Of a DNA stretch of 64,000 bases, positions 1-40,657 are shown one piece after another. Under the pieces are notes generated by a model that was given only the letters and a program-made list of their open reading frames with translations, had not been told where the DNA came from and made no database searches. The stretch is from contig SMSO01000034.1 in NCBI GenBank assembly GCA_004764695.1, positions 1,567,501-1,631,500 on the forward strand. Direction: 5' to 3'. Position 1 is the first letter of the stretch. Each line of letters starts with the position of its first letter. The stretch comes from Schizochytrium sp. TIO01. Lineage: Eukaryota > Sar > Bigyra > Thraustochytrida > Thraustochytriidae. A program made the position numbers and the translations under genes.

Positions 1-1218
1 GAGAACCACCTACCAGGCAAGACCTGCCGGAGCATCGACCGATATCGCGGCATGAGGTGCTAACGACAGGCGGACCAGACTCTGCTTTTGCATTTATCGC
101 AATCGATCCACGAATACGCTCGGCATTTCAAGCTGCCAGCCGGGAGCTCTTGAAGGGCACCGGCAGGAGCAGCAATTGAATTGAATTCCGCAGCAGAGCC
201 CAGGGAGCGTAGCCAAACGCCTAAGTGGCGCCTAGTGGCGACCAATTGATGGATCAATTTGCCCTCGGTCTGGTATTAGCTGCACCATGCTCATAAACGA
301 AGCGATTCGAAGTTAGCATTGTGGAAGCTAAAGGATCAATCACCTGGGTTAAGAAAGGCCAACCCAACGCCACGCCAGCCTCACCTGCTGCTGTTGAACC
401 TGGTACTGCCATAGACCCAGGCTTCCTTACCCCACCATGGACCAGGCAGAACCCAGAGTCCAGGATCCATCGCCAAGGCCACAGAACAAGTAAGTACGTA
501 CGTACGTACGTACGTACGTACGTATTATACAGCACACTCCTCAAAGACCATCCCAGCTACACTCCCCCCGTTCCCACTATTCTCTCTGTTACCTTTATTA
601 CCTACGTTACCTTGGTTCCCTATGTTCACATTGTTACCCTCGTTACCTTGGGCTCGAAGCGAGGATATCCTTGGAGATACGTTAGATCATGATATTCTCG
701 ATCATGCGTGATATACTTGATCTTCAGTGATATGCTTTTGTATAGGAACGAATAGATGCGGGTTCCCAGCTAGTGTGGTGTGGGTACAGTTTGGGGTAGG
801 AAGCTGGGTAGTCGGAAAGCGCCTTGGCGGGATCCGAGCGAGCGGAATCCGCCTTTGCGCGATCCTGGGGTCTGAAGATTGGCAAAGGTTGGCGAGGAAG
901 AAAGCCTCGTGGAAAGCGTCTTGGCACCCGGCAGACACGTAACTCTTGGCTGCGACCTGCCTTGATATTGCAAACATAGCAGGTGCCGCGAAAGAGGGCT
1001 CAAAGACTTTGTTTGGGTGCTTTTCAGGATTCGTTGGAGGAGGACAAGAAGAGGAGGGAGGAGGTACGAGAAGAAGAGGCAAAATAGGGGCCTCGGCGAG
1101 CTTCGTGAGGAAGGCTTCGAGCGGCGTCCTGGTGGCAGGAGCTGCTGTCTGGGGCGAACACGCTTTTGCAGGAAAGACAATTGCTCGGGCTGCAAGTACG
1201 TGTACTGAGAACAACATC
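1..1218. other. Intergenic start of window, no supported gene
   Basis: No convincing coding region is seen before pirin. The stretch holds a tetranucleotide microsatellite (about 491-524) and, at about 585-655, an imperfect array of GTTACC-containing units. The open frame continuous with pirin from 946 to 1218 has no ATG and is read as leader sequence, although an unseen upstream exon cannot be excluded. Confidence 0.5.
491..524. repeat. (ACGT)n microsatellite
   Basis: About eight uninterrupted copies of a self-complementary 4-bp unit (ACGT/TACG). Every register is its own reverse complement, so the tract can extrude as a hairpin. The Thr-Tyr-Val-Arg peptide encoded across it is a repeat artefact. 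Confidence 0.95.
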
Positions 1219-2043
1219 ATGTCTTCTATTCGCAAGGTTGATGAGGGTATCCTCTTCGTGTCAGAGCCCAACCCATTCATGTTTGGTAATGGCAAGAATG
1301 ACCCGAACAATTCCGCATGGACCAATAAAAACTGGCTCAAAAGCAGATTCCACTTCAGTTTTGCAGAGTATCATAACCCTCGCAACAGCCACTTTGGAAA
1401 GATGCGTGTTATGAACGACGATTTAGTTCAGCCAAACCGCGGGTTTGGAGCGCACCCTCATGCAAATATGGAGATCGTCACCTATGTTGTTCATGGTGAG
1501 CTCAGTCATGCAGACAACAAAGGGAACCAGGAAAGCCTCGGTCGGCACAGCACACAATTTATGTCCGCCGGCCAGGGCGTTGTTCACTCCGAGTTCAACG
1601 ACTCCACGAAGTCTCCTGTTCGCTTCATTCAAATGTGGTTTATGCCCCGCATGATGAACATTGATACTCGCTATGGCTCAACGCAAGGTAATGCCGAAGC
1701 CCTCACTAATAAGTGGCAGCACCTTGTGTCTGATGATGACTCCTCCTTTTCTACGCCAGTGAAGATTTGCCAAGATATTAACATCTACGTAACCCTGCTC
1801 GATGAAGGCAAGGAAATTGACTTTCACGTTAACTCAAACCGCCAAGCATACCTTCTTTGTGTTGAAGGAACTGTTACGCTGCAGGGTACACGTGGCGATG
1901 GCAAGGAAGAGAAGACGGAGTTGAAAGCACACGATGCAGCTGAGCTCTTCGGCGACATTAAGCTCAACATGCACGCCGAAGCGACTGGCACCCATTTACT
2001 TTTGGTTGAGATGAAGAAAGATGGATCCTCACGCTTCGCATAA
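1219..2043 (+). CDS. Pirin family protein (cupin)
   Basis: A 274-aa protein of the pirin family: bicupin, metal-binding nuclear or cytosolic proteins that act as transcription cofactors or quercetin 2,3-dioxygenase-like enzymes. The family signature is clear. The N-terminal cupin carries the GAHPHANMEIVTYV segment and the following GELSHADNKGN stretch, then QFMSAGQGVVHSEFN, supplying the His/His/His/Glu metal ligands (HPH, then H...E of VVHSEFN). Next comes QMWFMPR and a weaker C-terminal cupin ending near LLLVEMKK. Length is close to the usual 280-300 aa. The start is the first in-frame ATG (1219). The frame is open upstream to 946 but only through a TTG, and the Ser-Ile-Arg-Lys-Val N-terminus is where pirins normally begin. 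No intron is needed. Exact substrate is not predictable. Confidence 0.93.
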   Translation: MSSIRKVDEGILFVSEPNPFMFGNGKNDPNNSAWTNKNWLKSRFHFSFAEYHNPRNSHFGKMRVMNDDLVQPNRGFGAHPHANMEIVTYVVHGELSHADNKGNQESLGRHSTQFMSAGQGVVHSEFNDSTKSPVRFIQMWFMPRMMNIDTRYGSTQGNAEALTNKWQHLVSDDDSSFSTPVKICQDINIYVTLLDEGKEIDFHVNSNRQAYLLCVEGTVTLQGTRGDGKEEKTELKAHDAAELFGDIKLNMHAEATGTHLLLVEMKKDGSSRFA

Positions 2044-2859: not shown

Positions 2860-4082
2860 ATGCGGGACTGGCAGCCTCTGCATATATCTCCTCGAAGCAA
2901 GATGTCTGCGTCTCAAGCTGCAAAGCTCCGCGTGGTTAACCTCGTCGCCTGGACCGTAGTGGCAGCGTGTGCCATCGTAGCGGTGCTCAAAGGCGAGGAG
3001 CTCCAGGCATTGTCAGCGTATGACTCGAGTCCGATCGACTGGTGCGGTAAGTCTTTGCGTGAATATAATAGTGTTGGAATCAGCAACCGGGTGAGGCCAG
3101 CAAGGAACTTTGCAGGAGCAAGAGTACATCTATGTAAGGTCGTCATCGTTCTTGGTTTCGTGGCAGGATTTTATGTTACGGGAAGGAAACAAATGTAAAT
3201 GTGTATAATTGTAGAGCAACGATATCGGATCTACGCTCTATAAGGTGATTAGTGGAACGTTTTGGACAAGCATAACTGACAAGTGACTATTCCGATGTAT
3301 TCTAACCTTACAATATTGTGCATTTGATGCATTTTCTGGGATGGGGTCAATGATGTGTTGTTACAATATCAATAGAGATCAATTATGAGGTACATCCATG
3401 GGTAGCTGAGTTCTGGAACTCAATTTCATCTATTCCAATCGCCCTTGTGGCTCCTTTAGTTCGCATCAATGATCTAGTTCCACGCTACTTTTGGTCCGAG
3501 CTTCGATCAAGCATGGCGATTATTCTCTCTCTCATTGTCATTATTGGGATTGGATCTACCTACTTCCATGCTACCTTGAGCGTGTTTGGACAAATTATGG
3601 ATGAAATGGGCATTATTTGGATCGTACAATACTCTGCTCTTTTTATTCTGCCACCAGGTGAACACACGTTGCTGGTACAGGCAGCCTTTTTGCCTTCTGT
3701 CTTTCTCGGGTACATTTTTTTCTCTACCCTGTTGGGTCTATTCTTACCTATTGTGTCTCATATTCTTGTTCTTTCGTGTGCACCGATTGGTCTTTACATC
3801 CATGTTAAAGCATTTCAGCGCTCTCAAAGTAAGACCGCAAAACATCGTTTTCGCTTGGCCTTGCGCTTCTTCTTTGCGGCATGGGCATGTTGGCTTACGG
3901 ACCGCTTATTGTGCCCTCAAGTGCAGCAGCTCCGTGAGATCATTGGGTTTCAGCCCCAATTGCATGCTTGCTGGCACATCCTTATTGGTATTACAGCTTA
4001 CATACTTATCGGTGTGTGCTGCGAGTATGTTGCTGATGCACGCCGTGAAGTCAAGCAAGCTGAGCCTTTGGAAATTGTCTAA
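2860..4082 (+). CDS. Alkaline ceramidase, two exons
   Basis: Multi-pass CREST-superfamily enzyme that hydrolyses ceramide to sphingosine and fatty acid in the ER or Golgi membrane. Exon 1 is 2860-3046, exon 2 is 3376-4082. Joining across the 329-nt intron rebuilds one codon (G+AG = Glu) and restores the family segment SSPIDWCEINYE followed by WVAEFWNSISS. Catalytic residues are visible: S123 and H127 in GIGSTYFHATL, D138 in QIMDEMG, and the C-terminal H259-x3-H263 (HACWH), with spacing as in known alkaline ceramidases. About seven hydrophobic segments are present. The predicted 297 aa is slightly longer than typical. A second in-frame ATG at 2902 would give 283 aa and may be the true start, because the extra 14 residues are not family-like. 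Zn and Ca ligands are inferred from the family. Confidence 0.93.
3047..3375 (+). other. Spliceosomal intron of the ceramidase gene
   Basis: Donor GTAAGT at 3047 and acceptor AATAG ending at 3375. It is phase 1, and splicing is supported because it reconstructs the conserved W-C-E residues of alkaline ceramidases. Unspliced reading runs to a stop at 3198. Confidence 0.92.
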
Positions 4083-4575
4083 GACCTTGAAAAAATTATA
4101 TGCTTCAATTACCTTTCATCGCTTTCTTTGAAGACAGACAAAACATATCTGTATATGCACAACATTTCTGTAGGTAGTAATAAGTGCTTATACTCAACCT
4201 CCAAGAGAAATGTACCATCCTCGATTATTACGAAGGGTGCATTATATGTTCTGAACTTTGTAAACCCATCTTCTTAGTGTTGTTCGAAAAAAGCAGATCC
4301 CACATCTGTTTGATATGTTGCCTACTGATAGATTTAAATAAGTCGGCATTATTAATTTGTGCAACGTTTTGATTTAGCAGTCGAATCACGGTTTGAAAGG
4401 AACACATCGAGAAAAAGTTAATATGGATTGTACTGAATTTACTCTTTAGAAAAAATGTGCGATGCACAACAAAAACGAATTAAATAATCATGAGGTCGGA
4501 TAGCTTATGCCCCGGCAAGAGAATACGCTACTCAGTGACCTATTGAGACAAAAAGGAAAGCAGCTCGTCAACCAT
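4083..4575. other. Intergenic, nothing recognised
   Basis: AT-rich spacer downstream of the ceramidase gene and downstream (3') of the first minus-strand microprotein ORF, so it separates two convergent units. Short open frames here show no family resemblance. Confidence 0.5.
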
Positions 4576-4698
4576 TTATTGGTCGGCCTTGTAAATAGGG
4601 AGGACACCAACGGTATCCAGACGAGGCCGTGAGATACGAGGCCGAGTGGGAACAGGCTCAGCCTGAACGTTGCGGCGAACAAACTTTGGCTGCTGCAT
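4576..4698 (-). CDS. Candidate microprotein, LPIY family copy A
   Basis: A 40-aa ORF starting ATG at 4698. It opens with MQQPKFVRRNVQ and ends with RPRLDTVGVLPIY plus four residues. Two ORFs further along the same strand (start 6952 and 8750) have the same architecture: Met, a P-R/K-hydrophobic-V-R-R motif at residues 3-9, about 14 variable residues, then R-P-R-L-D/E-T-V-x-x-L-P-I-Y with the final Tyr at residue 35 or 36. A fourth ORF shares the C-terminal motif. The nucleotide sequence of the motif differs at third positions between copies, which argues for protein-level constraint. The frame is also open upstream to an ATG at 5004 (142 aa) through Lys/Pro/Gln-rich residues encoded by a minisatellite, so the true N-terminus is uncertain. 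No function is known to me and there is no signal peptide or membrane segment. Confidence 0.5.
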   Translation of the reverse strand: MQQPKFVRRNVQAEPVPTRPRISRPRLDTVGVLPIYKADQ

Positions 4699-4734
4699 TG
4701 TTATTATGAAGTAGAACTTTGGATAGTTTGCTAT

Positions 4735-4889
4735 GGAGGTTTGCTTTGGAGGTTTGCTTTGAGGTTTGCTTTGGAGGTTTGCTTTGGAGGTTTGCTTTGG
4801 AGGTTTAATTTTGGGGGTTTGCTTTGGAGGTTTGCTTTGGAGGTTTGCTTTTGGGGGTTTGCTTTGAGGTCTACTTTTGAGGTCTGCTT
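4735..4889. repeat. Minisatellite, about 12 units of 12-15 bp
   Basis: Imperfect head-to-tail repeats of GGAGGTTTGCTTT (12-15 bp variants). On the minus strand the array is open in frame with copy A and encodes K-P-P-K-Q-T/S-K-rich sequence. A shorter run of the same GTTTGCTTT/GTTTGCTCC motif lies upstream of copy B at about 7046-7085. Confidence 0.9.
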
Positions 4890-6829
4890 CTTTGGGAAGA
4901 TAATCTTGTGCAAGTAGGTATTTTCTCTCTATTGATTTAAAAAAATACGATACACGCGTATCCATCCATCCATATAAAAGTCGATACCTCTGGCTTTCAA
5001 GCATGAGCCTGTGTCTTCAATGCTGGTCGGGTTCTTGGTTGGTTGCTATGCAGTGCGGTGATGAAGCAATTAGCTTCGAAAGAGTGCTGTCACGAAAGCA
5101 AGTATTCACCACAGCAGCAAGCTTGGCGGGAAATCATCACCCCCATCCAAGCTACAGGTCGCTTTACTCCCATGCTCTCCAGCATTTTTCATAGCAAGAA
5201 AGTTACCTGCTTCATAGCCAGAGTTCCCACCATTGGTTCTGCACAGTTAACTCAAAGCTGTCCTGCTTCTTAGCAGGGTGCTGGTCTCGGCCTTGTCTTT
5301 GAGTGGATAAGGAAACTTCTTTAAGCAACAGCTATAGTTGAAGCTAGTTACACTAAGTGCATACGTCAGGCATGTTTCTGTCAGGAATCGACGTGAAATG
5401 GAGGTCGATGCCGGAATTTGTTTTGCCATCTTCTCATAATGATGCATTTGAATGCAGAGAAGCTGCTATGCAGAGAAGCTGCAAGTCTCATCACCAGCCC
5501 TTACTGAATGATTCTCGGCTACTTCAAAGTAGTATGTCTCGATCTATAGAAGTTTCTGTTTTCTCATCCTTGCAAGACTCGTTCTTCGCCTTATTCCTGA
5601 CATAGGAAATACCTTACTCGATAAAGGTGTACGGATACATAAAAATGGATTTTGTAGAGAATGACCTGCATACAAGATATCGGAAAAAATACGATGTATC
5701 ACGATACGATATAGACGAGATTCGAACTACCTTATGAACATAACCTAACTTAAAACCTTGCGTGTGGCACATCTTTAAGGTATAGTGACCTCAAATTCAA
5801 ATCATGATGGTTCAACTTCAAGTGCCGGTGGGCGTGTGCCGTGTACTGCTACTGTGACCTGAGTGACTACCTTTTATAAAGGGATTTCAACGATTACTTT
5901 GTATTCCATGAGAATGATTTTATACTCACACGGTAAATTCATGACTGTGATTGATCAACGAGAAAGGCCTGGTGGGTTGCACAACTCTCGGCTTGCCATG
6001 AGAGCATCTGCTTGATATGAAGGGATGATAACGATTATATTCTCATTGCGCTGGAACGCAGAAATCAATAAGCTAATCTTGCGGCATATCCAAGAAAAGT
6101 CTCGGCAAGAAAACCCTGCTGAGGACTTTTTTTCGTTACATTCCAGCCATCTGTGTAATGAGGACCTTATTGCATCCAAAAAGTTGACTCGAACTTTTTC
6201 ACCTGCCTCTTTTCCCGTAGACCACCCCTCGGAGACAAAATTATAGGCTTATTATGTGGCTATTCTGATTAATTGCAAATAATTCTCGTAGGTGCGCACT
6301 GAGGTGTGTACTCAGACGAAGCTTCAAGGTGCCTCTAATTATAGGAACAGAGTATAGAGCATTAAGATTGATTAAATGTATACAGAATACGATACTTGAA
6401 TGGTTGTTCCACAAATTAAGAGGATCATCTACGTGTTTCCTCAACGTAGCGGGGCGTTATTCAATGCGAGCGAAGAGCAAGTTGGACAATAGATTTGTGA
6501 TTATGATACCCTCTCGCCCACAGCGATTGCTTTGAAGTTACAAAGGCTTCTCAGATAGAGGGAGATTCTCAAACAGAAGGAGAGAGAGGCAAAGAAATGG
6601 CTCTCGTGCTTAGTATTATTCTATTTATTCAAGGGTTAGAACTGAGCAGGGCGGCATAAACTCAAATCTCGAAATAACTCAAGATCAAAGATATTCTAGA
6701 ATCACTTTAAAACAGATTAAAAAATGTTGCATTATGATACATGGTTTGTAATAGAAGTTGCTACATGAAGATAATCCAATTATCTTAGGCAGCAGCACCT
6801 GAATAGGACTACAGATGATTGGCCGAGCT
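4890..6829. other. Gene-poor spacer between microprotein copies A and B
   Basis: AT-rich DNA with only short, unsupported open frames on both strands. No RNA gene, transposase or reverse transcriptase signature was seen. Confidence 0.5.
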
Positions 6830-6952
6830 TTACTTTGCTTTGGGGGTATAGATGGGTAGAGTCTCGACTGTATCGAGACGAGGGCGCGTAACTCTTGTGC
6901 CGTTGGTAGGCGACATCTGGTTGGCATTGCGGCGAACGACTCGAGGGAACAT
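6830..6952 (-). CDS. Candidate microprotein, LPIY family copy B
   Basis: A 40-aa ORF (ATG at 6952, TAA at 6830-6832), exactly the length of copy A. It starts MFPRVVRRNANQ and ends RPRLDTVETLPIY followed by TPKAK. Against copy A the C-terminal motif is identical except at two positions (VG V/VE T), yet codons differ: Arg-Pro-Arg-Leu is cgc-cct-cgt-ctc here and cgg-cct-cgt-ctg in A. The peptide is strongly basic with no signal peptide or hydrophobic segment. The frame stays open upstream of the ATG through Lys-rich sequence, as in copy A, so it could instead be the last exon or C-terminus of something longer. Function unknown. Confidence 0.5.
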   Translation of the reverse strand: MFPRVVRRNANQMSPTNGTRVTRPRLDTVETLPIYTPKAK

Positions 6953-8585
6953 TTTCTTTTCTACTAGTATATGTATACTATGAATGTCTTTCTTAGCTTG
7001 ACTCAATGATGGCTTTGTATTGCTTGTTTTGATGCGCTTGAGTTTGGGGTTTGCTTTCCAGTTTGCTCCTCAGTTTGCTTTCATCTCTGCTTCTGCCTGC
7101 TTCTCTGCTTGCTTCCTTCTTTGCCATCATTGCTTCGACTGTGAGCACGCGGAGTCGAGCTAATTGCACCAACTCTTTGTGCTCGGCAAGCAAGTTAGCT
7201 CCCCACAGCACTCATCGTGCTCTTGAGATTCTGAGTCTCACGAAAATGGATTCCAGCCTTCCCGTTCTGTTGCTTGAGAACCGGCCGCCTGTACATGGAG
7301 CCATACAGTGAACCGCCCGGTCCCTGTATACAGCACACTGGCTTTGCGGTATGAGGATGCGTTGACCAGGGCTAGATACATAAATGAAAAACAGAGAACC
7401 CAATTTTTCTTGAGTCTCCGCATTGCAATAAGTGGATTCTGATAAGTGCAGGTCATTGAAAGTTGTTCGCCCGCCCTTTGTTCGTTCTCTTGCTGTGTTC
7501 AGGGCTGTAGAAACTTTAGAACTAATAGGCCTATTTATGTACATATATCTCTTTTTCTTTTCTTGTTTAAAGTAAATAGTTTCTTAGAAAACTAAACCCA
7601 TATGAATATTCAAGTTCTTATACGATACCATGGAAGATGGTAATTAAAATCTTTGCGTAGATAAAATGGCCCAGTGCACCGGAGAAGCCTTGACTTAAAG
7701 CATAGTGCTACTTGCGTGATACGATAGGTCTAAGGCCAGCCTTCGCGCCGAGACTGGAGAGGAAAGAAAGATGAGATACCTGGTCTAATACGTGAAAGGT
7801 TGCACGCTACGAAGTGAGATGGAAGCTAAAAGGGAATCTACTTTGCTTCTTACGGAAAAGTGAGCAGAGAAGCCTTTTTCTCTTTAATTAAGAAGCATAC
7901 TTACAATAGGCTGATGCTATATTGTTTGTTTTAAGACACAATATAGCTTCGTGAAAGTGCAGTTCTTGCTCAGTACTGCTTTGTAAATCCTAATGCAAGA
8001 TAGTCCCCAAGCACCTCTGCACACTACCCCAAAACCTGGTCAGTTTTCATTTTGACATTGACTTTTCCTTTATTCACCTACTCCTAAAGTTTGTGGCGCG
8101 CACTTTACTCAAAAGCTGGCCTGACTGCCCTAGACCAGCCTTTTGATATGAATTTGCATTCCATTTAGTAACAATTATACTATGAAATAGGTTACAGCTG
8201 TATTGCAACCAAGAATGACTACGCTATGCAGCCAGCTAAACGCAGTTGCTGTCATCCCACTATCTATTCTGGATATTCACAAATGCTCATGTTTCTTAGT
8301 TTAAGGGAAGCAAGATGATGTATGTCTAGTAGCATCTTGCGTATTTATGCCTGGAGTGTTGGGCCATTCTTCTACGTTAGCAATCTCGATCATATTGGCA
8401 CAGGCAGAAGGTAACAAGCAATAGAGGTATTCAAGATAAAGTTATATCAATTCTCAATTTTATTTCATCATAATAATTCACAGTACAGACTTGGGTGCTT
8501 GTTGAGCAACTAGAACTCACTCAAAAGCATAATAGGGGTTTTCTATGTATGGCAAGACCATTTATTGTCTTGCAAGTAGCTTGCA
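6953..8585. other. Gene-poor spacer between microprotein copies B and C
   Basis: Holds the degenerate GTTTGCTTT-type repeats at about 7046-7085, and otherwise AT-rich sequence without a supportable gene. Confidence 0.5.
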
Positions 8586-8750
8586 TCATCTTGCAGGGTG
8601 ATGGTTTTCCCCTGTTGGACAGCTTGTATAACTTGCAGATCTGTAGATAGGCAAGCAATCTACAGTCTCAAGCCGAGGTCGTCTAGGTTGCAATTTAGGC
8701 TTCGTGGTGTCTTTGGCGTTCGCTCCTTGACGTACAACGCGCGGCAGCAT
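8586..8750 (-). CDS. Candidate microprotein, LPIY family copy C
   Basis: A 54-aa ORF from the first in-frame ATG at 8750. Residues 1-11 read MLPRVVRQGAN and residues 24-36 read RPRLETVDCLPIY, aligning without gaps to copies A and B to within one residue. It differs by an 18-residue tail after the Tyr (4-5 residues in A and B), perhaps through loss of the original stop. Codons for Arg-Pro-Arg-Leu (cga-cct-cgg-ctt) differ from every other copy. There is no in-frame ATG upstream, which supports this Met as the start in this copy. Function unknown. Confidence 0.45.
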   Translation of the reverse strand: MLPRVVRQGANAKDTTKPKLQPRRPRLETVDCLPIYRSASYTSCPTGENHHPAR

Positions 8751-10666
8751 TTTCACAAACTTATGCAATATAAGAAGAGCAATTATTGAGCAACCAACTT
8801 CTGCGTTAGGGTTTTGCTGAAAGCCTCTGAGCTGCAACGAAAGCTACGTATCACACGAAAGAAGCACACATTGAGCTATTAGCTTTCAAAGGGGTGCTGG
8901 TCTACTTTTGAAGAGAAGCTAATTGCTTACTCGTCTGTGCTCAACAGCTCCCCACATATGAAGCAAATTGTTGTTTTTATTTTTCTAATACTGGACTAGC
9001 CTGGAAAAGAGGGATTTAAAACTATTTTTAGCTTACAGGAACACACCAAGCTTGTGGTTGAAATGCCCGAGTATACTAGCCCTACTTACTCTATAAATAA
9101 GGGGCAAAAGGCATATTTATAAAGTCCAGCCGAAAGTACATAATCATGGACCCAACGAGCTTTTGATGTAATCAGTAACTCTTTTACAATCCTTCAAGAC
9201 ATAGTCCTGCCCGAACCCCTCGTTTGGAAGTCATACAAGCAAGTATATATTTTCCATTTATAAGGGTTGACGAGCAGTGTCAACGGATTAGCGTGACTTG
9301 GAAGTTTCTGGTGAAACTAAGCGCGGTTGTTGCTTTAATCTAGTGCGTTGATCGACGCTGGAATGTGAGCTACTGCTTCCGCTAAAGGATGCTGAAGACA
9401 CCTGTGTGCCTAGAGGTTTGGAAATAAGCAGTTTGAACAATTTCCTTTCATTTCCTTCTTCTTCTTTAAAAAAAAAAAAAATAAATCCAAGCATATGTGG
9501 ACGAAGGATGAAATGATTCAAGTAAGGATAATCTTGAGTTGATCAGCGCGGGGAAACCTCACCGCCTATAGCTCTTGAGACTTTGTATGTGAATCCCCTG
9601 AAGCCCTTCCTGTCAATTTGACATAAGGAATCCAATTATTCTGGCTCTCTACCTCTTTCTCTATCTGTGACCATTCACAGGGATGTTCCATCCAATACAC
9701 ACCTTTCTCTTTCTTTTCTTTCTTTGTTCCAGACTACGTTCCCATGCCCACGTATGCTGTCATTGTATAGAAGCAAAATACAATAATCGAATTTCCACAT
9801 GTACACTCCCTGTTACCTTCCATGCTGCCTTCTAACAGCAGCATCGGCGAACAAGAAACTATCTGCCTTCACATAACAACCTCCTATTTCCTCATTCCCC
9901 TATTTATGACCTCTCTATTGGAATTATTACAGTATATTTATTGCGCGGTCTCTCGTATTCTCTTATTTTCATGCTCAAGGTTTTACTCGTAAGCAAGAAA
10001 GCAGTTTTCGCATATAGAACCAGAAACAAGATAGGTACAAGTACGTATACTACTAGGTAGTGGACAGTAATAAATCTTGTGATAAGCCTTGTTTACAATC
10101 ATCCAAATTCACCAATATTGTCAAGAAATAATAGACCTTTAGCTAGAGGAACCAAGGATACACAACAAAACAATGCATTCGTGTTGCTAGGTATTGTTGA
10201 GTTTAGCGAAGATCAATCTTATTGGTGAATGTCTGCCCTCATTTGAAATTGCGTAGCACGAAGCAAACTTACATTGGTAAGCTATGAATGATCTCAGCTT
10301 TACAAATCTAGTATCATTCGATATCATATTCAACAAGAAAATACTGAAATCCGAATTTATCTGTAGGTTTTAAAACGGGGGGGAGGGGGGGTGTCAAGAA
10401 ATTGGAAGAACAAGGAAGCAAGAAAGGATTCTTGACAAGGCATGAACTTGGATTTGAAGATAAAAAGCATGCTTTACACATCATCTGCCATTGATGCAAA
10501 TCGAGCTATGAATAAAAATAAGTCAATTAACCACAACGGAGCTTCCCTACGCAAACATTCATGATTCCTTCAAATCAAATCCATATCTAAAACCCAAAAC
10601 AAATGTAATGGGATCAATTTATATATATAATAAGAAAGACAGCAAGCCCACAGCTTAGACTTGTAG
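8751..10666. other. Gene-poor spacer between microprotein copies C and D
   Basis: AT-rich spacer with an A13 run at about 9469 and a G7-A-G7 run at about 10377-10391. No convincing coding sequence or RNA gene. Confidence 0.5.
10377..10391. repeat. G-run (G7-A-G7)
   Basis: Two runs of seven guanines separated by one adenine in an AT-rich setting. Possible assembly-sensitive homopolymer or quadruplex-forming tract. Confidence 0.8.
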
Positions 10667-10927
10667 TTATAGCTTTGGAGGAATATACATCGGTAGCACC
10701 TCAGATGTCTCAAGCCGTGGTCTCGAAAGCGTTGACCTGGTCTTAATTATGGGCGAAAAAAATAATGGTTTGGTAAGCTGAGCTGCATCTGACTCGTGGT
10801 TCTTGACCTGCTTTTCATTCCCTGAAAGAGAAGATCTCGTACCAACTTCAGTCATACTCCTAATACGAATAACTATCATGGACGGCGCTGAGTTCTGAGC
10901 AGCGGTCTTTCCCATTTCCTCTGGCAT
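10667..10927 (-). CDS. Candidate small protein, LPIY family copy D (divergent)
   Basis: An 86-aa ORF (first ATG 10927, TAA at 10667-10669) that ends RPRLETSEVLPMY plus IPPKL, matching the C-terminal signature of copies A-C. The N-terminal half is longer and diverged. A segment MIVIRIRSMTEVGTR may correspond to the M-F-P-R-V-V-R-R...G-T-R part of copy B, with about 33 extra residues inserted before the C-terminal motif. Those extra residues could be a retained intron or a true insertion. I could not identify convincing splice sites. Arg-Pro-Arg-Leu uses aga-cca-cgg-ctt, again different codons. Function unknown. Confidence 0.4.
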   Translation of the reverse strand: MPEEMGKTAAQNSAPSMIVIRIRSMTEVGTRSSLSGNEKQVKNHESDAAQLTKPLFFSPIIKTRSTLSRPRLETSEVLPMYIPPKL

Positions 10928-13560
10928 GAGGTTGCCGACCCACAAAACGGTGAAATACAGTTTGGGTTTTGTCGGAGCTTCAATTTAGCTGAAGCTTGAT
11001 TCATAAGGCCATATTGGTTTATTTATGTAACAATGCCAGGTAGGCATTTTATTCGACGGCTTTCACTATTTCGGCATGATTATGGATACCAGTTGACAGA
11101 AAGTGCTATTCACCTAGCGCAAACAAAAAAGGATATCAAAACGTATTCCATGTTCCGATTTCATAAATCATACCGAGGAAATAGCCCGAAATCCTCATAA
11201 ACACAAAGCGGTGAGAGTTTCTTTGCAAGGAGGATAAGGTTGCAACTCTTATGTTTGAGGCTGTCGTTGATTTTTTTCATTATGTATTATCCATATTTTT
11301 TCTTATGAAGTATTTGCCATAAACGAAGACGAAGAGTCTAGTAATACTGACAAAGAAGAAGCAAGACTCGTTAATATTACTTGAGGTGTCAAGTACTGTC
11401 TGAGATTTTGCGGGTTCAAGAACATGTTACATTGTTAGTTTAAAAAGTGGTGGACGTACGTCAGAGCCAAGATAAAAATCTTAGGTATTTACTGATTTTC
11501 AATCTTTTCTCTTTCTCTGTTTAATTCATTAACACATTCTCAACAGAACAGATGTACCAGTAATCATGCCGAATTAACAACTTTATAAACTGCAGCATTC
11601 AAGCTGGGCAGGCCTTAGAAAGGAACTCAGTCATGATTAGACATAGCATGCCAAACTAACCCATGAATGTATTGTGCATATTTGTCCTTATTGCACTGAC
11701 GCGTTTTGCAAAGTGCATGCAAATGACTTTTAACTCCTTTTTTTCTTTCTTTTTTTTTAAACAAACAGATATCTATGGATAATCAAGATAACAGGCAAAG
11801 GCAAAATAATAGTATCACTAAGAAGCGAAGTCTGCCCTCAATATGCTTCGAGCTAATGGTATGCGCCTCATAAATAAGATGTGCCGTTGTGAACTAACCA
11901 TGCGCATCTTTAGCTTGAAAAAGCCTAGAATGAAAAAAGAGCGCACATCACGATAGCCAGATGTGCAAGGTCGGTTAGTTTATCTTATCGAATTAGGATT
12001 TTGAATATAAACAACTGTAAGAGCACTGGAACACTATTCTCATCATGTAAAAGACATCAACATAATTGATGGCAGGATCAATTGCCGAGATCTATTCACC
12101 GATGAGTCCAGATGGGATTAGATAGCGGCTTCTCGGCACTACAATATTGGGGGGGACTTGCATTTTGTGTACCATATAGCTATGCTGTGCTATTTTGACC
12201 TTCTGGTTTTTTCTTCGAAATATTGTTACCCTGGCAGTTGAATGCATGAAGGTTACCTGCTGAAATCAACACGCCCTCGTCTGAGAAGAAGGAATCCAGG
12301 TTTTAAATCAATGGCAACGTTCTACTCTGTCGAGACTTCTTAACCGTTTAATGAATGAGTCGGGAGAAAACCAAGGGAGCCGCGCGAAAGGACGAAGAGC
12401 CAAATTCAACCTACTAGTCAGACATGTGTGCATATAATTCAGATATTTCTTGTGTCAGCTCGCTAGCTCGCTAGCCAGTCTAAATCTTTGTCGGTGAACC
12501 TCTCACTCAAGCTTAGTTGCTTCGAGCACGTAGCTTCAAACAAAGGGCCATTGGGTTTTATCTACAATACTAAAGGAGTGGCAAGAATCCGAGCTAGTGT
12601 CAAATTAGATTTCGCGTATATGCACTTGCCTTCAGTTTCACTTGTACCCCACCGATTTCCAAAGGAACATACTGTGTTGGGACAGCTCAACTCGGAATCA
12701 CTGTGGCGTCAATGTTGCACTTAAATGGATGATTGGCTTCAAATAAGTTAAATAAGTTAATTGTCTTGCGTTTATTACATATCATTAAACTTAGCACCAC
12801 TAAGGTCATCACTTCTAAATGACTTATCCAGGCTACTAAGGGCAGCCGTCGTGCCAAACTAGGTGAAGATTTAACATATTGATTCAACATTATTTAGCTA
12901 GCCTTGGTTCGGCTTAAAGATTGACAACAGCTTGGTATGATGTTAACCCATCGATACAACAGCTGAGAATAAAAGCTTAGCTTTACACGCCATAGGGTTA
13001 TGGCTAAAGAATTTTTCACCGCGCCAGCTTTTGGCAAAGTTGAATATCCATTCCCATAACCCCAGTGGGCGAAACTCCACTATAAGAGTATGAGATTTTC
13101 AGCTCCTCTCGAGTTGACCCAGATCTTGCATCATGTCAAACCCGAGACTCCTCCAGGCCATGAATTTTTTAAGGCAATCTCGCTATTTAGAAACCCGCAG
13201 TGAAATCAGATGCTGCCAAATGCAGCAACAGATGCCTTGGCATACATTGAAAACCTTGGCATTGATTCAATTAAGGGTATGCTACGCAAGTTACAGGTTT
13301 CTCTTTAAGTTTCCCGTTACATTCTTGTTTTACATAGAAAGTCACGAGTTTTGAGCCAGCAAGTACATTTTCAGATATTTCTTCTCCTAATAAAACTTTG
13401 AAAACTGTAGAGTAGACAAAAAAATATCAAGTTTGTTTTAGAACTCCATCAGAACATACGCACCAGATTCACGCGTACGAGAGCTGGCTTGCGAAAAAAG
13501 TCGCCAGTTCGAACCCGGCCTAGCATATAAATACGAACAGCCTTATGTTACAATTTTAAG

Positions 13561-13597
13561 TTCTTCTTTTCTTTTCTTTTCTTTTCTTTCTTTTCTA
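13561..13597. repeat. (TTTTC)n microsatellite
   Basis: Short pyrimidine tract of CTTTT units. Confidence 0.85.
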
Positions 13598-14186
13598 TTA
13601 CCTGGTACTTTAAAGAACCCCGTAACGGGCAGTTTTATACTGCATGTTTGTGACAGGTTACTTAGAAATGGCTTCTTTCTGATCAGCGATATCCTGCAGT
13701 CCTTAGGTAATGTATTTGCTTGCCACTATACGAGGGGGGGGGCGAACCAGTGGCTTCCCACAACGACTTGGCACACTAGCTTGATTGCCTAGCTTACACA
13801 TCATCACTCACCAGTAAGGTAACAACTGATGCTCGCTTGCTTACTTACATAAACGAGCTTCATTGCATCCTCAGGTTCCAAGAAGCTGATTGAATCATGA
13901 ACCAGAGCTTGATTTTTCTCCGGCAATAAACCTCGACACATTCACAAACTCTACATGAACTACAGCGCACGCCTTCTCCCTGGACATTATTTGTCATTTG
14001 AAGGAGCCAGAAGGGCTAAAGCTGCTTCCTTTTCAGACTAACGGGCAATGAATGCTGGCTTCCATTTTATGAGCACTACTGCTAAATAGATAGTGTACGC
14101 TAATTTTAGAGAGAGAAAAGAGCAGGTAGCTAGTATTACAACTATGCTATTTACTTAAACCTCATTTCTCCATCGCTCCGCTGCAT

Positions 14187-14253
14187 AAAATTTAATTTAA
14201 AAAAAAAAAATGTTGGAATTTCCCCCCCCTTTTTTTTTTAAATAAAAATTAAA
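14187..14253. repeat. Imperfect A/T inverted repeat with C-rich loop
   Basis: A left arm of A-rich sequence (ending in twelve A) and a right arm beginning with ten T flank a loop that includes eight C. The arms can pair as a long A:T hairpin. Confidence 0.6.
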
Positions 14254-15044
14254 GCGCGCTGATTCTCCAACAAGAAGTTTTCCATATTTGTTAAGATAGC
14301 GCAACGCATTGATTTTGTTTTGTTTCTTTAGCGATTTTTAAATATTCGGACAGGAAATACTACCGCTAGGTTGTATATAACTTTCGAACAAGCAAAACGA
14401 AAACCCAGATGTAATAATCTCACCTATAGATGTTCGACAGAGGCCAAAGGGGCAGAAGCCAGGCACCAGCCTTCATATACGTCACAACCGCATTGGAACC
14501 ATCAGGAGCTCCAGCAAACTTGCAAACCCAGATTCTAAGGGATGCGCTCTAGGCTTAGCTTTGAGCAAATCACAATGCCACTCAAGAACGATGTATGTGA
14601 ATCATGCTATTGCAGACTTGTACGAAGGGAAGGCATGGGTGTTTGTCCCAAGCCAAAAGCAAAGCCATATCGTCAGAGGCTATTTATTGTAGAGGTCCTC
14701 CCCATCTATGTTCCAGCTTGACCACAATAAATCTGGTGCAGATGATATTCGAGGTTCTTCGGTGCCGATCTACGAATACTTAAAGAAAATAAATATGGAA
14801 AACTGTACAATTTAAATTTGACACAGCGGCTATGCCTAATTTTCAACAAGTCTTGCGGACCCCGGATTAATTTCGAGTCAGAATTGGTCAATCAGGTATA
14901 TCTGTTGAGTTGAGGTCTGGAATGTGACAGCGCATACATGCTACGTAACCCTTCAAACGGGTAGTAAAGATGGAACATCTCTGTTGAATAGCTTTATTAG
15001 ATATGAAATATCATGTTTTAGTTTATATACTTGCACATGAATAG

Positions 15045-18000
15045 CTACTTATTCGTAGAATCCATTTCTAAATTATCTCTGGTCACTGACGGAAATATAC
15101 CATTACAATACTGTGCCGTCTCTTTGACAAGGTCGTCTAGCATAAGATCAGCAACCTTGGAGATAATATCCCATTCCTCTTGCTCGCTTTGCATCCATTC
15201 CTCATCTCGTTCGAGGAGATCAGAACAAATCACATTTTCCAAGCGTTCATAAGGATCCATGGTCCACAACGCACTACTGGACCATCTAGAGTTATCATAT
15301 ACCTCGCTAAAGTAATCAAGTGCGCCCCCCTCAGCACCTCCATTCAACAGTACAGGCGCGATACTCGGTCCAGATTCGAGCCTATCCCATCGTAAGACAC
15401 GCTTCAGTACATCATCTACAAGAGTCTCTAAAGGTGGTACAGGAGCGCGTAGCCGGATCGCTTGTCGAAAAGGAACATGGGCCCAGGAACCCGATTTCTC
15501 AACTGGAATCTTTGTTCCATAACGCTGCCCTAACAAAATTTCCTCCAATGAGCTATTAACTAAGTCAAAAAGCATTTTGTTGTTGATCTGCAGATATTCA
15601 GGATTTTTATCTGCGCGTTCCATCTCCAAATAAAAGCTCACATCAAGTGCCTCCCCGGCGCTCTCAGTTTGCATCTGAACCGCCTGTTTCCATTCTTCAA
15701 ATATGGCACGCCCTCCATTCTCCTCAACCATATCGAATAGTCTCCGCACGTACATATCCGTGTAAGATGTCCAGTCATAATAGCCCTCATCTTCATCACG
15801 CTCGGATTCAAGATACTCAGGTTCTTCTGCTCCGTCAGTCACTCCTGTTGTATCAGTATCGTCATACGTAGCTTGTGCATCTCGTTCGGCATAATCAAAG
15901 GATGAAGCTGTGTCGTCCTCGACCAAGGCTGTATTATCAGTCTTAAAAGATTCCACAATAGCAATGTCATTTACTTCCCTCTCGCCTAAAATACCTTGAG
16001 CCATATCAATCGCTGACTCGAGGCTTTGAGCAATATCATGTGGTTCTTCAGCTAAGGGCAAAAACGAATCGGTTTTTTTGGAATGCATTTGAATACCATC
16101 TTCAAGACCATCTTCAAGAACAACATCGTTATCTTTCGCGTCTCTCGTGAAATCAGAACTACTAATTTCGAGGTTGTGAGCTTCGCCTGGCTTGGAAAAT
16201 GCTTGCTGAATTAGCTCCGGGAGAAGCATAGCAGTCAGCTTGTCTGCAAGCTCTGCTTTTTGGGCGCGGCGTGCCTCAAATGTGACCCGGCCATCTTCTA
16301 ATGGCTCACCTCCACCTTGCGCCTCTTTAAATGTTGCAGTCTCTACAGAGCCATTGTCAAGTTGGTGTGGACTTTTGTGGAACTCTCCGTCTCCAGCTTT
16401 GTGGCGCTCTTTAGGTAAGGACGAAAACGACTCGTTTTCGTCTATGTTGTGCTCCCCATCCTCATCTGCGCTATATATGCCATCCTCACCTGAATTTTCA
16501 ATATCACTCACTTCAGGTCCTTGGTGTTTCTTAATGGTCTTTATACCAGGTTCCTCCACTTTTTCTACCACTTCGCGTACATCGCCATCACTTTCTTTAT
16601 CACTACCTTCACTGATATCTTTGACCACAGCCTCTGGCATTTCTGCATGAGCTATACCTCTAATCAACTCTTCATGCACCGAGTCCATCTCCTGTGCCAA
16701 CTGGGTATCTTGAGGGTTTTGATCAATGCTAACACTAATGGGATTAAGAGGCTCGCCATCTAACATAATTTTGCCCGAATCATGGATTTCGCTACCGAAG
16801 TGCTGTGTCTCCGAAATACCATGATTTTCTTCTTTGGAAGAGATAAGCTCAGCATGGTGGTTGGCCGGGCCAACACGACTTGGAGCCCTAACTCGGCAAA
16901 TTTCAAATTCATCAATACTTGCAAAAGAGTCTGCTGCAAGGTTTGCTATCATTCCTGCAACCTCCGGATCTTCACCTTCGTCCTCATTACTCTGACCGTC
17001 GATAATGTTTTCCTCATGAGCAGCCCTTGCTCCAGTAAGATTGCTGTCTTGATTCTCATTTGCCTCCGTACCATCGAGCTCGGCCTGCCGTTCATTAGGC
17101 CCAACTGACTCTAGAAGGGCAACAGCTGACTCATCAAATTCATCATCATTAATATCGCCAGCTTCGCTCATCTGGTCCCAATCATCGGCAAGAGGAACTG
17201 CATCATGAACGAGCGAGGCGCCAATCGATGACACTTGGCCTGATCCGAAACTGTCAGAGTAAGCGCTTGAAGTAACAGTGCTTTGGGCCAGTGCAGTTTC
17301 CAGGGCAGCTATTTCTCGATCAGTTTCCATGATCTCTTGCTCGAGATCACGTTCAAATTTACGTTGGTCATGATGTGACTGTCGTAGAGAGTGTTTTTCC
17401 TGCAATTTCCCTAGAGCAGCACGTTTGATTTCAAGCGCATTCTCGAGGTTGTGAATTCTTTCGGCGCGAAGTTCCATACTTTCTTGCATAGCTAAACCAC
17501 GGGAAGATAGTGAAGAGGAGGCTGGCTCCGCTCTACCAGCAACTGCATTCGACTCGAAGAACCTTGATTGACCAGGCATTTTTATAGGGCTTGATCGAAT
17601 ATCACCGTCAGCCGGGAGAGAAGCATTTGTCAAAAGGGGAGAAAGATGGTCCAGGCTTTGGTTGGAAGCAGCAATATCGTGTGTGTCAACACGAAGAGGC
17701 TCCGGAACCTTTTCTTTACCCACAATGGTAGCACGCTCATCTTCTTCGTCTTCTTCATCTTCAAAGCTTTCTTCATACTCCGTCGTTTCTTCTACGGTAC
17801 GAGCTGAAGAAACTACTTGACTTTGCTCATAATGTGTATCTAGCTCTTCGTCTACTTCCTCATCATATACATTGGAAGGAAGGCTTGATTTTGATTTTTG
17901 AACTTGGTCAAGATCCTCATCGATGACTTCTTCATCGTCATCATCAAACATGCCTTGACTAATGAGATCTTCCGCAACGCTGGACACTACCGATCTAGAG

Positions 18001-21000
18001 TGCGCATTATCTGCACTTTTCACAGAACGAGCGACATTGGAAGTGCCACTATCATACTCACTCTCAATCTCAGATTTGTATACATTTCCATCATCCTCGA
18101 ATGATGCACTATATTGAATACTGTCACGCTCCGAAATGTTACCCTTACTATCCCGAGGACTCTGCAAAGCTTGGGTTATATTTGGCAACATTTGTTCACC
18201 CATCAACGCTGGAGCTGGGCTCGTTGGTGAAAGCGATGCGCCATCAGATCCCATTAAAGAAGCCGCAGCTTTCAAGAACAAGGCATCTCTCTCTGGAGAA
18301 GACAAAGGCAGATCAAAGGAACCTTGCTTTTGACGAAATTGCATTGTTTCATGGTATAAAGTGCTCAACGTTTGCTTGTGCTTTCGGTAGCTAAGTTCCT
18401 CTTTATAGTATTGTTCTGTCAAGGCGGCACGCTCACTGTCAATCGAAGCCTTATTCATCCAGAAGTTTGTTTCAATTTTCCGTCGCTCCTGCTCAAGACT
18501 AGCTTCGATCTCGCGCTGCGAAGGCATTTTAATATCATTTGCACGAGGGGACATTATTCCAACCTTCTTAGGAGAGGAGTCTCCAGATCTAAAGCTACTG
18601 CCTCCTGTCTTACAGTCCTCCACCCACTGAATCATGAGTTTCTTCTGATGAATAAGCCATTTAAGCTGTTCTCTAGTTTTCTCCCGTAAAGCTTTTTCTC
18701 GCATCTTTAACAATTCCTGCTCATGCTGTCTGCGTGTAGCAGCATTCTTCCGGTAATTTCTCAACAGCTGTTTCGTAAATGCTCTAAAAGACCCATCAGC
18801 ATCTTGTTCGCTTTCAGCTAGACCCAGGTCATCATCAGACTCTCGAAGGAAAGACTCATCTGGAACGAGTTCTCGCATCAGACGTTTATCCTCAGCAGAG
18901 AGCTGAACATGGAGGAACTCATCGTTTCGGGATTGTGCAGCATGATCGAGTTCTTGTCCACGATTAAGTTTGCGGTTACTGGATTGATATACCTCGGAGC
19001 CTTCCTCGAAACCCTCTTCGGCATCTTCATCGTCAAAGCTTGAATACACCTCACCCTCAGCAGCAGATGCGAGGCTTCCTGACATGCCCAAAGTAACCAT
19101 CTTATCGGAATGGAGACGATCAACATCGACCTCGTCGATAATGCTCTGGCTTTGGGACGCCCCATCTCCCTCGTCATCACTGTCTAAATTTTCTTCAACA
19201 TCTTCACTGATTTCATCCTCGACAGATTCTTGGTGAGAGTCTTGTTTTAGAGTTTTGCCTTGTACAATTCTCGCGGAGGAAGCCGCTGTTCGCGGGCTAT
19301 CTGAAATTGAATTTACTGAAGCTGCAGCCGTGCGAGGCGAGCGGGTTGCATAAGATCCAGATGCGCTTAGAATTGATCGAGGGCTACGTGACCATGACTC
19401 CTCAACACTGACTGTTGTGCCCTGGAGGGACGGAATATCGCCACGACGAGAACTTCGTGGGGTTTCGTGGAATCCACTTGTGCTGAATTCGGTGTCGTAT
19501 TGTTCATCTTCACCTAAACTCTCGTCATCATCTTCTTCAGATTCATTGTCATCATCATCGCCTTCGTGATTTTCCTCCACTCCTGAGCTTGATTCACTGC
19601 AATATCGGCCGTGGCCTTCATCCATAGAATTTGATTTACCAGAAGGTACCAAGATCTTCTCAAGCTGAATTGGAGATGTTGAATGGGAAACCTGTCCTGG
19701 AATTGGTGAGGTTGCATGGGATTCGTAAATTGGCTTCATCTCAGCTACAGTGACAGCTGCGTCTCGACGATCGACTAGTGGGGCGTCGGATGCCATATCT
19801 CGCACATCTTTGTCAAGGGTTTGTGCACCTGTATCTCTCCGTTTGGCCTCTGCAATGGTGTCCTGAAGACTCTTTGCACGTGCTTCTGCTGCAAAAATCT
19901 GAGCTTGGGCTTGTTCATTAATGTGAGCTCTAATCTCGACTGTGCGAGCCTCTACGAGATCTTGGCTAGCCTGATAAACTGTTGCAATTTTTGCAACTTC
20001 GGCTGCGTGTCTTCGTTCATCATCCCATTGCTGCATGAGTGCTGCTGTTTCGTGCTGAGCAAGCGAGAGCGCCTGCGCATGCTCGAGCTCGTTCAAGTGT
20101 TGATGTGTCTGCTCTAGAGTCTCAAGAAGGTTTACATTTGCTAAGAGCTTCCTACGGAGGGCTCCAGGAGAAAGAGTGCGAGGTTTCTCCGAGTGCGAAG
20201 CTGACGACGTAGTGCCATCATGTTGGGACTCCTGTGTTTTCAATGGGGTTTGCAATGTTTCTTCGCCATTAAGGATGCAGCTTTTTACCTGTTCACCCTC
20301 CTCAACCTCGGATTCATAAATAGCATCATGGCTACCTCTATTATCAACGTGAACACTGTCATTAGTTTGTGGCTTTAAAGTATCGAGGATTGGTCTTTCG
20401 TCCTCTGCAGGAACTTGAAGGAGCTCGTCGTCCCATTTGAGCTCCTCTGGACGTCCTGCCTCGTCGGATGCAGTCACATGACGTTGATGATGCAGGCGTA
20501 CATGATCGGGGATTGCCTCCTTCACGGTGGCATCGTTTTCTAGATGCAGTAGCTTAGATGCTTGCTCAATTAGATCAGAGGATCCAGCAAAATGTGCTAT
20601 AGGAGGATCCTGCTTAGAATGAAGATCGTCAGCAAGCCCAATATCCTCATCTGAATTCTCGCCATCTGCTTTGGAAGATCTGCTCTGAATACTAGCTGCA
20701 GTAGAGCCACCATCCGAAGCTTCGGCGGCATCTAGATGAGCTTGACGAGCTGCCTCCTGCTGCGCTACGTAGAGATCAAGAATTCCATAAGATTTTCTCT
20801 TGACATAGGCTTCAACCTTGTCCTGTATTGGCATGCGTTGCGTATTTCTGGACGCAATGTTCTGGGCAGCCCTAAGATTGGAGAGGACAGGTCCTGCACG
20901 ACCTACCGAACCAGCAGGGCTTGTGGAGTTCTTCTGGCAGGTCGATGAGGAAGCAGAACGGAGATTGGGGTCGCGAGCAATGGCTCGTTGCAACATCTCT

Positions 21001-23204: not shown

Positions 23205-24350
23205 TGAGTTCTGCAAACGGCGGATCCCAACTTAGCAAGCACTGTCAAAGAGAAGAAATAGAGAAGGCAAAAAAGAACACTGCTTCCTCACTATAACGCA
23301 CATAAAAACAATAGCACAGCAACAAGGAGCACAATTGGAACAGGACGCGATTAAATGAGAACACCACAAGTAGAGGTACGGGTTATAGATAAAGCTAGAT
23401 AGCGCATAGCAGTGAAGGGAGAGAGATGGCAAAATAATGGGTGGGTAAATTGGGATCGTCCATGGGATAATGGCTTAATTAGCGAGAACGATTTGTGATG
23501 CCACAAACTGTTGTATCTAGCAAAGACTGGTTCAGCAGAAGGCGAGCGAGTAAAGCTTACTTTCATTTTTGAAACACCCCATCTGTACCGCTTACAAGTA
23601 ACTGATGATGGAGCGAAGAAGCGATATAGTCCATGAGGATGAATAAGCTTTTAAAAATGAATTGATAAATTATGATCAATACCAATGATCCAACTGTAAG
23701 ACTTCCACTACTTCAGTATAGGTTTAACATCAAACATTACATATCTCTTTCCCGATTATGGTTTATATATTGGGTGTAAAACACTTATGTTTCAAACCTA
23801 AGACCAGTCTTCAATGTTACTTGGCACTAACTTCTTTATTTTAGTCATCACCTCCGTTACTGTTGACGAATTAATTAATCGTAGCAAATGACTTTTTTTG
23901 CATGGAAAGACAATTTCGCTTGTACTAGTCGAAATCCACAAATACATTGATCACATCTTTTAATATTCTGGTTAGAGACATCGCGCATTGCAATTAGACG
24001 TGTTTTTTATAAGAATGCGAACGCTGCTAATGTTCTGGACATTTAAATGTTGTCATTTGAAATGTGACAGTTTTCCAATTTGATTGCTAAGGATAGAGGC
24101 GATTGACGAGGACGCTCGAGTCCAACAGGATTGACTAGTAAATTTGATACATAAAGTAGCACTCAAGTTACGGGTCATGGTGTTCTATCATACACTACAC
24201 TAGAGAACGCATTTCGTCCCAATCGAAAAGTGAAAATAAAAGAATTTTTCTCTTTTCTCTTTTCTCTTTTAGTTGTTGGAGAGTCTTCATTTACTGCCAC
24301 CAGTGGCCAAGAGCAAACCTCAGACCTTTTTGACCTTTGGGACGTCCGCG
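23205..24350. other. Divergent promoter region
   Basis: Lies between the minus-strand CEP350-like gene and the plus-strand zinc-binding protein gene and should hold both promoters. It ends in a strong polypyrimidine tract (24242-24271, TCTTTTC repeats) followed by TTTAG, which looks like a 3' splice site just upstream of the next ATG. Confidence 0.5.
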
Positions 24351-40100: not shown

Positions 40101-40657
40101 ACCAATAACAATAAAAATGTGATGGTCAGATGCACCATGTGTTGAGGTGACTTGTCTCCAATATTTGATTCTTGCAAGAGTTAAAGCTACATCAACTTTA
40201 AAATATTTACATTTCATTTATGCTGGTACATAGGCAACTATTACAATCCTGTCTATAAGTTGTTGTGAGCTTCGTCTTAACCTTATAGGGTGCGCAACCC
40301 ACGATGAGATAGGTTAATTATGTTGATGACAATAACATGGGAAACAATCACAAATACAGTCCTCATGGCTCCTTGTTCGCTCGGTTCTTCTTGCTCGGAA
40401 TCCGTGACATTGAAATCCGGGCTTGCTAAGGACAAATACAGAAAACTGCTAGTGGTTAAAATACGTGCGCTTCAAACTTCACACACGTATCTTCGACCAG
40501 CGTGTTGAGGATCTGTGAGATTCCCATCAAACCGAGATTTACGCCAAGCAAGACTTAGAGTCTTAGCAGGATATTGTTCATAAGCAAAACGTTTCAAACC
40601 CGACTTCAAAGCTGCTTCGCAAGCGTGCCGTTGCGAAGGTGGCAGACTAAACGAACA

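Follow-up and report, generated by a model that had tools for sequence, protein, structure and literature searches.

Small open reading frames in the window

The window, a 64-kb stretch of DNA (C33:1567501-1631500), belongs to an assembly of 64.06 Mb in 37 contigs. The genome is eukaryotic nuclear, with long, mostly uninterrupted open reading frames (ORFs) and a eukaryotic RPL5 near by. A cluster of very small ORFs has to its left a Pirin gene (window 946-2043) and a ceramidase-family gene (3447-4082), the latter next to the first small ORF and on the opposite strand. No other long ORF was found at about 4.1-15.0 kb; the initial annotation of this DNA noted a stretch that otherwise looks gene-free. 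Beyond it, an uninterrupted ORF of 2723 aa (15045-23216, minus strand) has a C-terminal DUF4378 (E 5.8e-8), a domain known mainly from plant proteins. Two tandem glutathione S-transferase units are present in one ORF at 40574-42649 (plus strand).

The small ORFs of the window are the following, each with a short C-terminal "tail motif":

Copy A: 4576..4698, minus strand, 40 aa, MQQPKFVRRNVQAEPVPTRPRISRPRLDTVGVLPIYKADQ; tail motif 4591-4629; start context ACA-ATG
Copy B: 6830..6952, minus strand, 40 aa, MFPRVVRRNANQMSPTNGTRVTRPRLDTVETLPIYTPKAK; tail motif 6848-6886
Copy C: 8586..8750, minus strand, 54 aa, MLPRVVRQGANAKDTTKPKLQPRRPRLETVDCLPIY...; tail motif 8643-8681
Copy D: 10667..10927, minus strand, at most 86 aa, ends SRPRLETSEVLPMYIPPKL; tail motif 10685-10723
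Copy E: 14575..14721, plus strand, 48 aa, MPLKNDVCESCYCRLVRREGMGVCPKPKAKPYRQRLFIVEVLPIYVPA; variant tail motif 14671-14709

Four minus-strand ORFs, with starts at 4698, 6952, 8750 and 10927, had been reported by the initial annotation, and all four were recovered. Two copies had been given as exactly 40 aa (A and B), and the Tyr placed at residue 35 or 36 in three copies is found at 36, 35 and 36 in A, B and C. The codons quoted for RPRL are exact in all four ORFs. An N-terminal M-x-P-R-V-V-R-R-like box, described for three of the four, is present in A, B and C only; copy D is without a clear box, its start is uncertain and its tail reads LPMY. Copy E was found by a six-frame scan of the 64-kb window for [LVIM]P[IVLMA]Y, and has LVRR and R-x-R-L-x4-V-L-P-I-Y-V-P in common with the others.

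When all ORFs of the region are compared as proteins, A to E match one another, the only other equally strong pairs being low-complexity repeats. Copies B and C are 54% identical over 37 aa (E 6e-8), D matches A at E 4e-4, and E matches B at 7e-5 and C at 4e-4. When the whole genome was searched, copy B matched A and C at E 8e-4. In addition, 5 of the 35 genome matches of the pattern R-L-x5-L-P-[IM]-Y fall within 10.15 kb of the window, with 0.0038 expected (Poisson P 6.6e-15). Chance is excluded as the source of the window copies.

Copies elsewhere in the genome

A search for further copies, suggested at the outset as a check, found at least nine more loci. The tandem family of four is thus real as far as the four tandem ORFs go, but the family also includes copy E on the plus strand and the loci elsewhere, some of them dispersed. 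In total there are 14 firm loci (5 in the window and 9 elsewhere) and 1 tentative one; the enumeration rests on pattern searches and 14 is a lower bound. The earlier observation holds, and it understates the family.

A second cluster on contig C34 holds four copies (F, G, H and O). Searching with the protein of copy C gave one more match on this contig (E 0.13), 1.5 kb from one pattern match, and copies F, G and H were found by reading the region around the matches. Copy O (RPFRARAQTSDVLPAYVPSQR*) was detected in the cluster by a box profile from which it had itself been left out (E 0.082). Most of the about 20 kb at this cluster is without another long ORF. The remaining loci, of which copies I to M come from the patterns RPRL-x4-VLP and RPRL-x-T-x3-LP, are:

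Copy I: C24:2451958
Copy J: C30:8476641
Copy K: C30:8542946
Copy L: C30:8710960
Copy M: C33:2633074
Copy N, tentative: C6:1114211, RRLGTPEVLPRFVNQNP*, from extra pattern searches

Copies L and M are closer relatives, with 51% identity over 76 aa (E 4.7e-8).

The patterns differ in how far they exceed their reversed controls. The T-anchored pattern gave 19 matches against 5 (Poisson 1.4e-6), the codon-degenerate R-L-x5-L-P-[IM]-Y gave 35 in 64 Mb against 24, and RPRL-x4-VLP alone gave 14 against 11. For the extra pattern searches the counts were not above the reversed control, and among the loci inspected only N and known members fit.

Three other proteins were left out. A protein resembling a two-component hybrid kinase (C3:456480-456880) has in a linker the sequence RGRLPTTDVLPLF, which is similar to the tail motif, perhaps by chance; a 133-aa piece of it had no Pfam match. 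An ORF at C34:3754560-3754960 that ends in LLKRTKAVLPGYIP (C-terminal VLPGYIP) has a possible remote tail motif and was not counted. A dynein-like protein with VLPIYLP was also left outside the family.

The conserved tail and its codons

Members range from 40 to about 117 aa and are mostly basic. The common element is a tail of 13 residues, R-P-R-L-x-T-x-[D/E]-V-L-P-x-[Y/F]. Across the 15 boxes, R1 is found in 14, P2 in 12, R3 in 15, L4 in 13, T6 in 13, an acidic residue at position 8 in 10, V9 in 12, L10 and P11 in 15 each, and Y or F at position 13 in 13, with the counts for R, L, T, V, L and P partly inflated because these residues served as search terms. A stop codon follows 1-8 residues past position 13 in all copies except C (18 residues).

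Several features were not searched for and are therefore free of this ascertainment bias. Among the nine true matches of RPRL-x4-VLP, Y or F stands two residues past VLP in 8 and the stop comes at most 9 residues later in all 9; T occupies position 6 in 8 of them, a position this search did not require. Copies E, G, J, K, L, M and O have an aromatic residue before RPRL; upstream of the motif, J, K, L and M have NPQ[D/E] and G has SPQD. The N-terminal box had been taken as a second shared element alongside the tail. It is the tail that chiefly defines the members, while only about half of them (seven copies: A, B, C, E, G, H and I) have a basic box, P-R-x-[LV]-V-R-R with variations.

The codons behind the tail are not shared. 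For identical motif residues they agree in 220 of 806 comparisons, against 234.6 expected for independent choice from pooled usage. In six aligned pairs, pooled, identity at the three codon positions is 138/215 (64%), 146/215 (68%) and 57/215 (27%). Since the codons do not agree, the likeness of the copies is not due to recent origin. Neither the 2-kb units of the window nor the window cluster and the C34 cluster have blastn similarity beyond short chance matches, and recent repeat or transposon copies were ruled out for this lack of nucleotide similarity between units and clusters. Synonymous divergence (dS) being saturated, constraint was read from codon agreement rather than from a formal dN/dS. 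A peptide conserved at such divergence is strong evidence that the copies are under protein-level constraint, through purifying selection, which bears out the proposal of old duplicates selected at the protein level.

No library model names the family among the members searched, and the initial annotation likewise knew of no named family with its signature. The best Pfam match for eight members had E 0.078 and the best NCBIfam match for four members E 0.12, both below cut-off; PHROGs gave no significant match for fourteen members (best E 0.04), and member L had no match in PDB sequences at E up to 10. No relative was found in viral contigs scanned with the first five copies, nor in prokaryotic genomes searched with member M. 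Literature searches for the motif brought up RPRL solely in unrelated contexts, apelin among them. Window positions 4000-15100 had no Rfam match at gathering scores, and a structured RNA in place of a protein was ruled out on this ground. From the sequences at hand, the family looks real and unnamed.

AlphaFold2 predicts no helix or strand for copy G (14-row alignment, pTM 0.18); its confidence peaks, at about 80, over the tail motif.

Gene structure, alternative readings and a possible role

At -3 of the proposed starts, A is found in 10 of 13 copies, compared with 32% of the region's ATGs (P 0.0013), and a purine in 12 of 13, compared with 53% (P 0.003). Copy D, with C at this position, is the sole exception. 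Copy H (C34:2302001-2312000, minus strand from 6757) has no in-frame ATG, and an out-of-frame one stands a few bases upstream; the copy may be broken, non-ATG-started or spliced. The frame of copy A is open upstream to an ATG at 5004 (142 aa, including a low-complexity repeat), so the start given for it is putative. Given H and the doubtful starts of A and D, splicing or decay may affect some copies. A GGTTTGCTTTGGA-like repeat occurs in runs upstream of copy A (window 4733-4890, long) and copy B (7045-7080, short); at A the repeat shares the frame of the microprotein, and translation from the ATG at 5004 would give a QSKPPKQT-type repeat.

These observations bear on whether the motif is the common 3' end of larger spliced genes, a terminal exon and not a stand-alone microprotein. 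The frames of several copies continue without a stop for 20-40 codons before the chosen ATG, and copy H would fit such an arrangement. On the other hand, A, B, C and I have the conserved basic box within a few residues of the proposed ATG, the ATG contexts are favourable, and no other conserved segment recurs upstream within the window units. We consider terminal exons unlikely. Upstream ORFs or arrest peptides were rejected, as the copies have no long ORF downstream on their own strand and the distance from motif to stop varies.

Known motifs were also compared with the tail, and none of those tested (PY, AGC-kinase, D-box) explains both of its halves or fits all copies. If LPxY were a ligand of WW domains, it would recruit Nedd4-like HECT ubiquitin ligases and the proteins would be adaptors or decoys of the ligase. 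LPxY is documented as a variant PY motif (PMC8509885), and 9 of 15 boxes match [LP]PxY. The other six fail, four with F for Y and two with neither, so that a PY motif cannot define the family. Furthermore, the RPRLxT half is as conserved as LP, and we know of no role for it in PY recognition. The PY adaptors of Nedd4-family ligases, such as Ndfip, resemble the family in that both use a short linear motif, which in most copies here contains LPxY, but in the family the Y is not universal, the conserved context is larger (RPRLxT), and no transmembrane segment is seen in the short copies. This role is rather improbable. To much the same degree we doubt a phospho-switch, where RPRLxT would be an AGC-type kinase site and the phosphorylated tail would be bound or degraded. 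R-x-R-x-x-[ST] occurs in 12 of 15 boxes, under search patterns that favoured R, R and T, and T in 13 of 15. Copies E (Ile) and G (His) have no acceptor and N has no first Arg, yet all three keep VLP-x-[YF], and a kinase site would not need the distal VLPxY. An APC/C D-box, making the proteins short-lived pseudosubstrates, is very improbable: R-x-x-L-x-x-[LIVM] fits A, B, C, E and H, only 5 of 15, and its position 7 is unconserved, whereas VLP, outside the D-box, is conserved. Equally remote is an extracellular peptide ligand or an antimicrobial peptide, apelin-like or proline/arginine-rich. Apelin-13, from a secreted vertebrate hormone, starts with RPRL and ends in P-F, and the tail likewise has RPRL and then a Pro-aromatic pair about eight residues on. 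This likeness is superficial; the spacing and the central residues differ, and inspection of the family's N-termini by eye shows no signal peptide. The family is filed under none of PY, AGC-kinase, D-box or apelin.

We favour, at roughly even odds (probability about 0.5), small, mostly basic, probably disordered intracellular proteins whose C-terminal docking motif binds one common partner, the proteins acting as adaptors or competitive inhibitors. Docking motifs are typically built in this way, as a short, extended, conserved tail on a disordered chain, which suggests this role. We infer that the tail is a docking site, that the copies are expressed today and that the partner is a single one. 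The common function would be carried by the C-terminal linear motif, assisted in about half of the members by the N-terminal basic box (PRxxVRR), and each member would bind the same conserved groove of one partner protein as its adaptor or competitive inhibitor. Tandem and dispersed duplication would have produced variants that differ in the linker, the copies being duplicated in gene-poor stretches where sequence outside the motif could diversify freely. As a parallel by description, plant SIAMESE-related (SMR) CDK inhibitors form a large family of small, divergent, disordered proteins that are likewise recognisable by short motifs alone; their motif differs and no sequence relation is apparent.

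More tentatively, the copies may form an undescribed, genome-wide family of regulatory microproteins that would titrate or redirect one conserved partner and be defined by a new C-terminal docking motif, RPRLxTx[D/E]VLPx[Y/F]. Proteins of 40-60 residues are easily missed by genome annotation. Because synonymous sites are saturated, protein-level constraint on a family of at least 14 copies is demonstrable from a single genome. Lastly, the 13-residue tail is a ready bait: if one partner binds it, a new linear-motif interaction would be identified together with its regulators.
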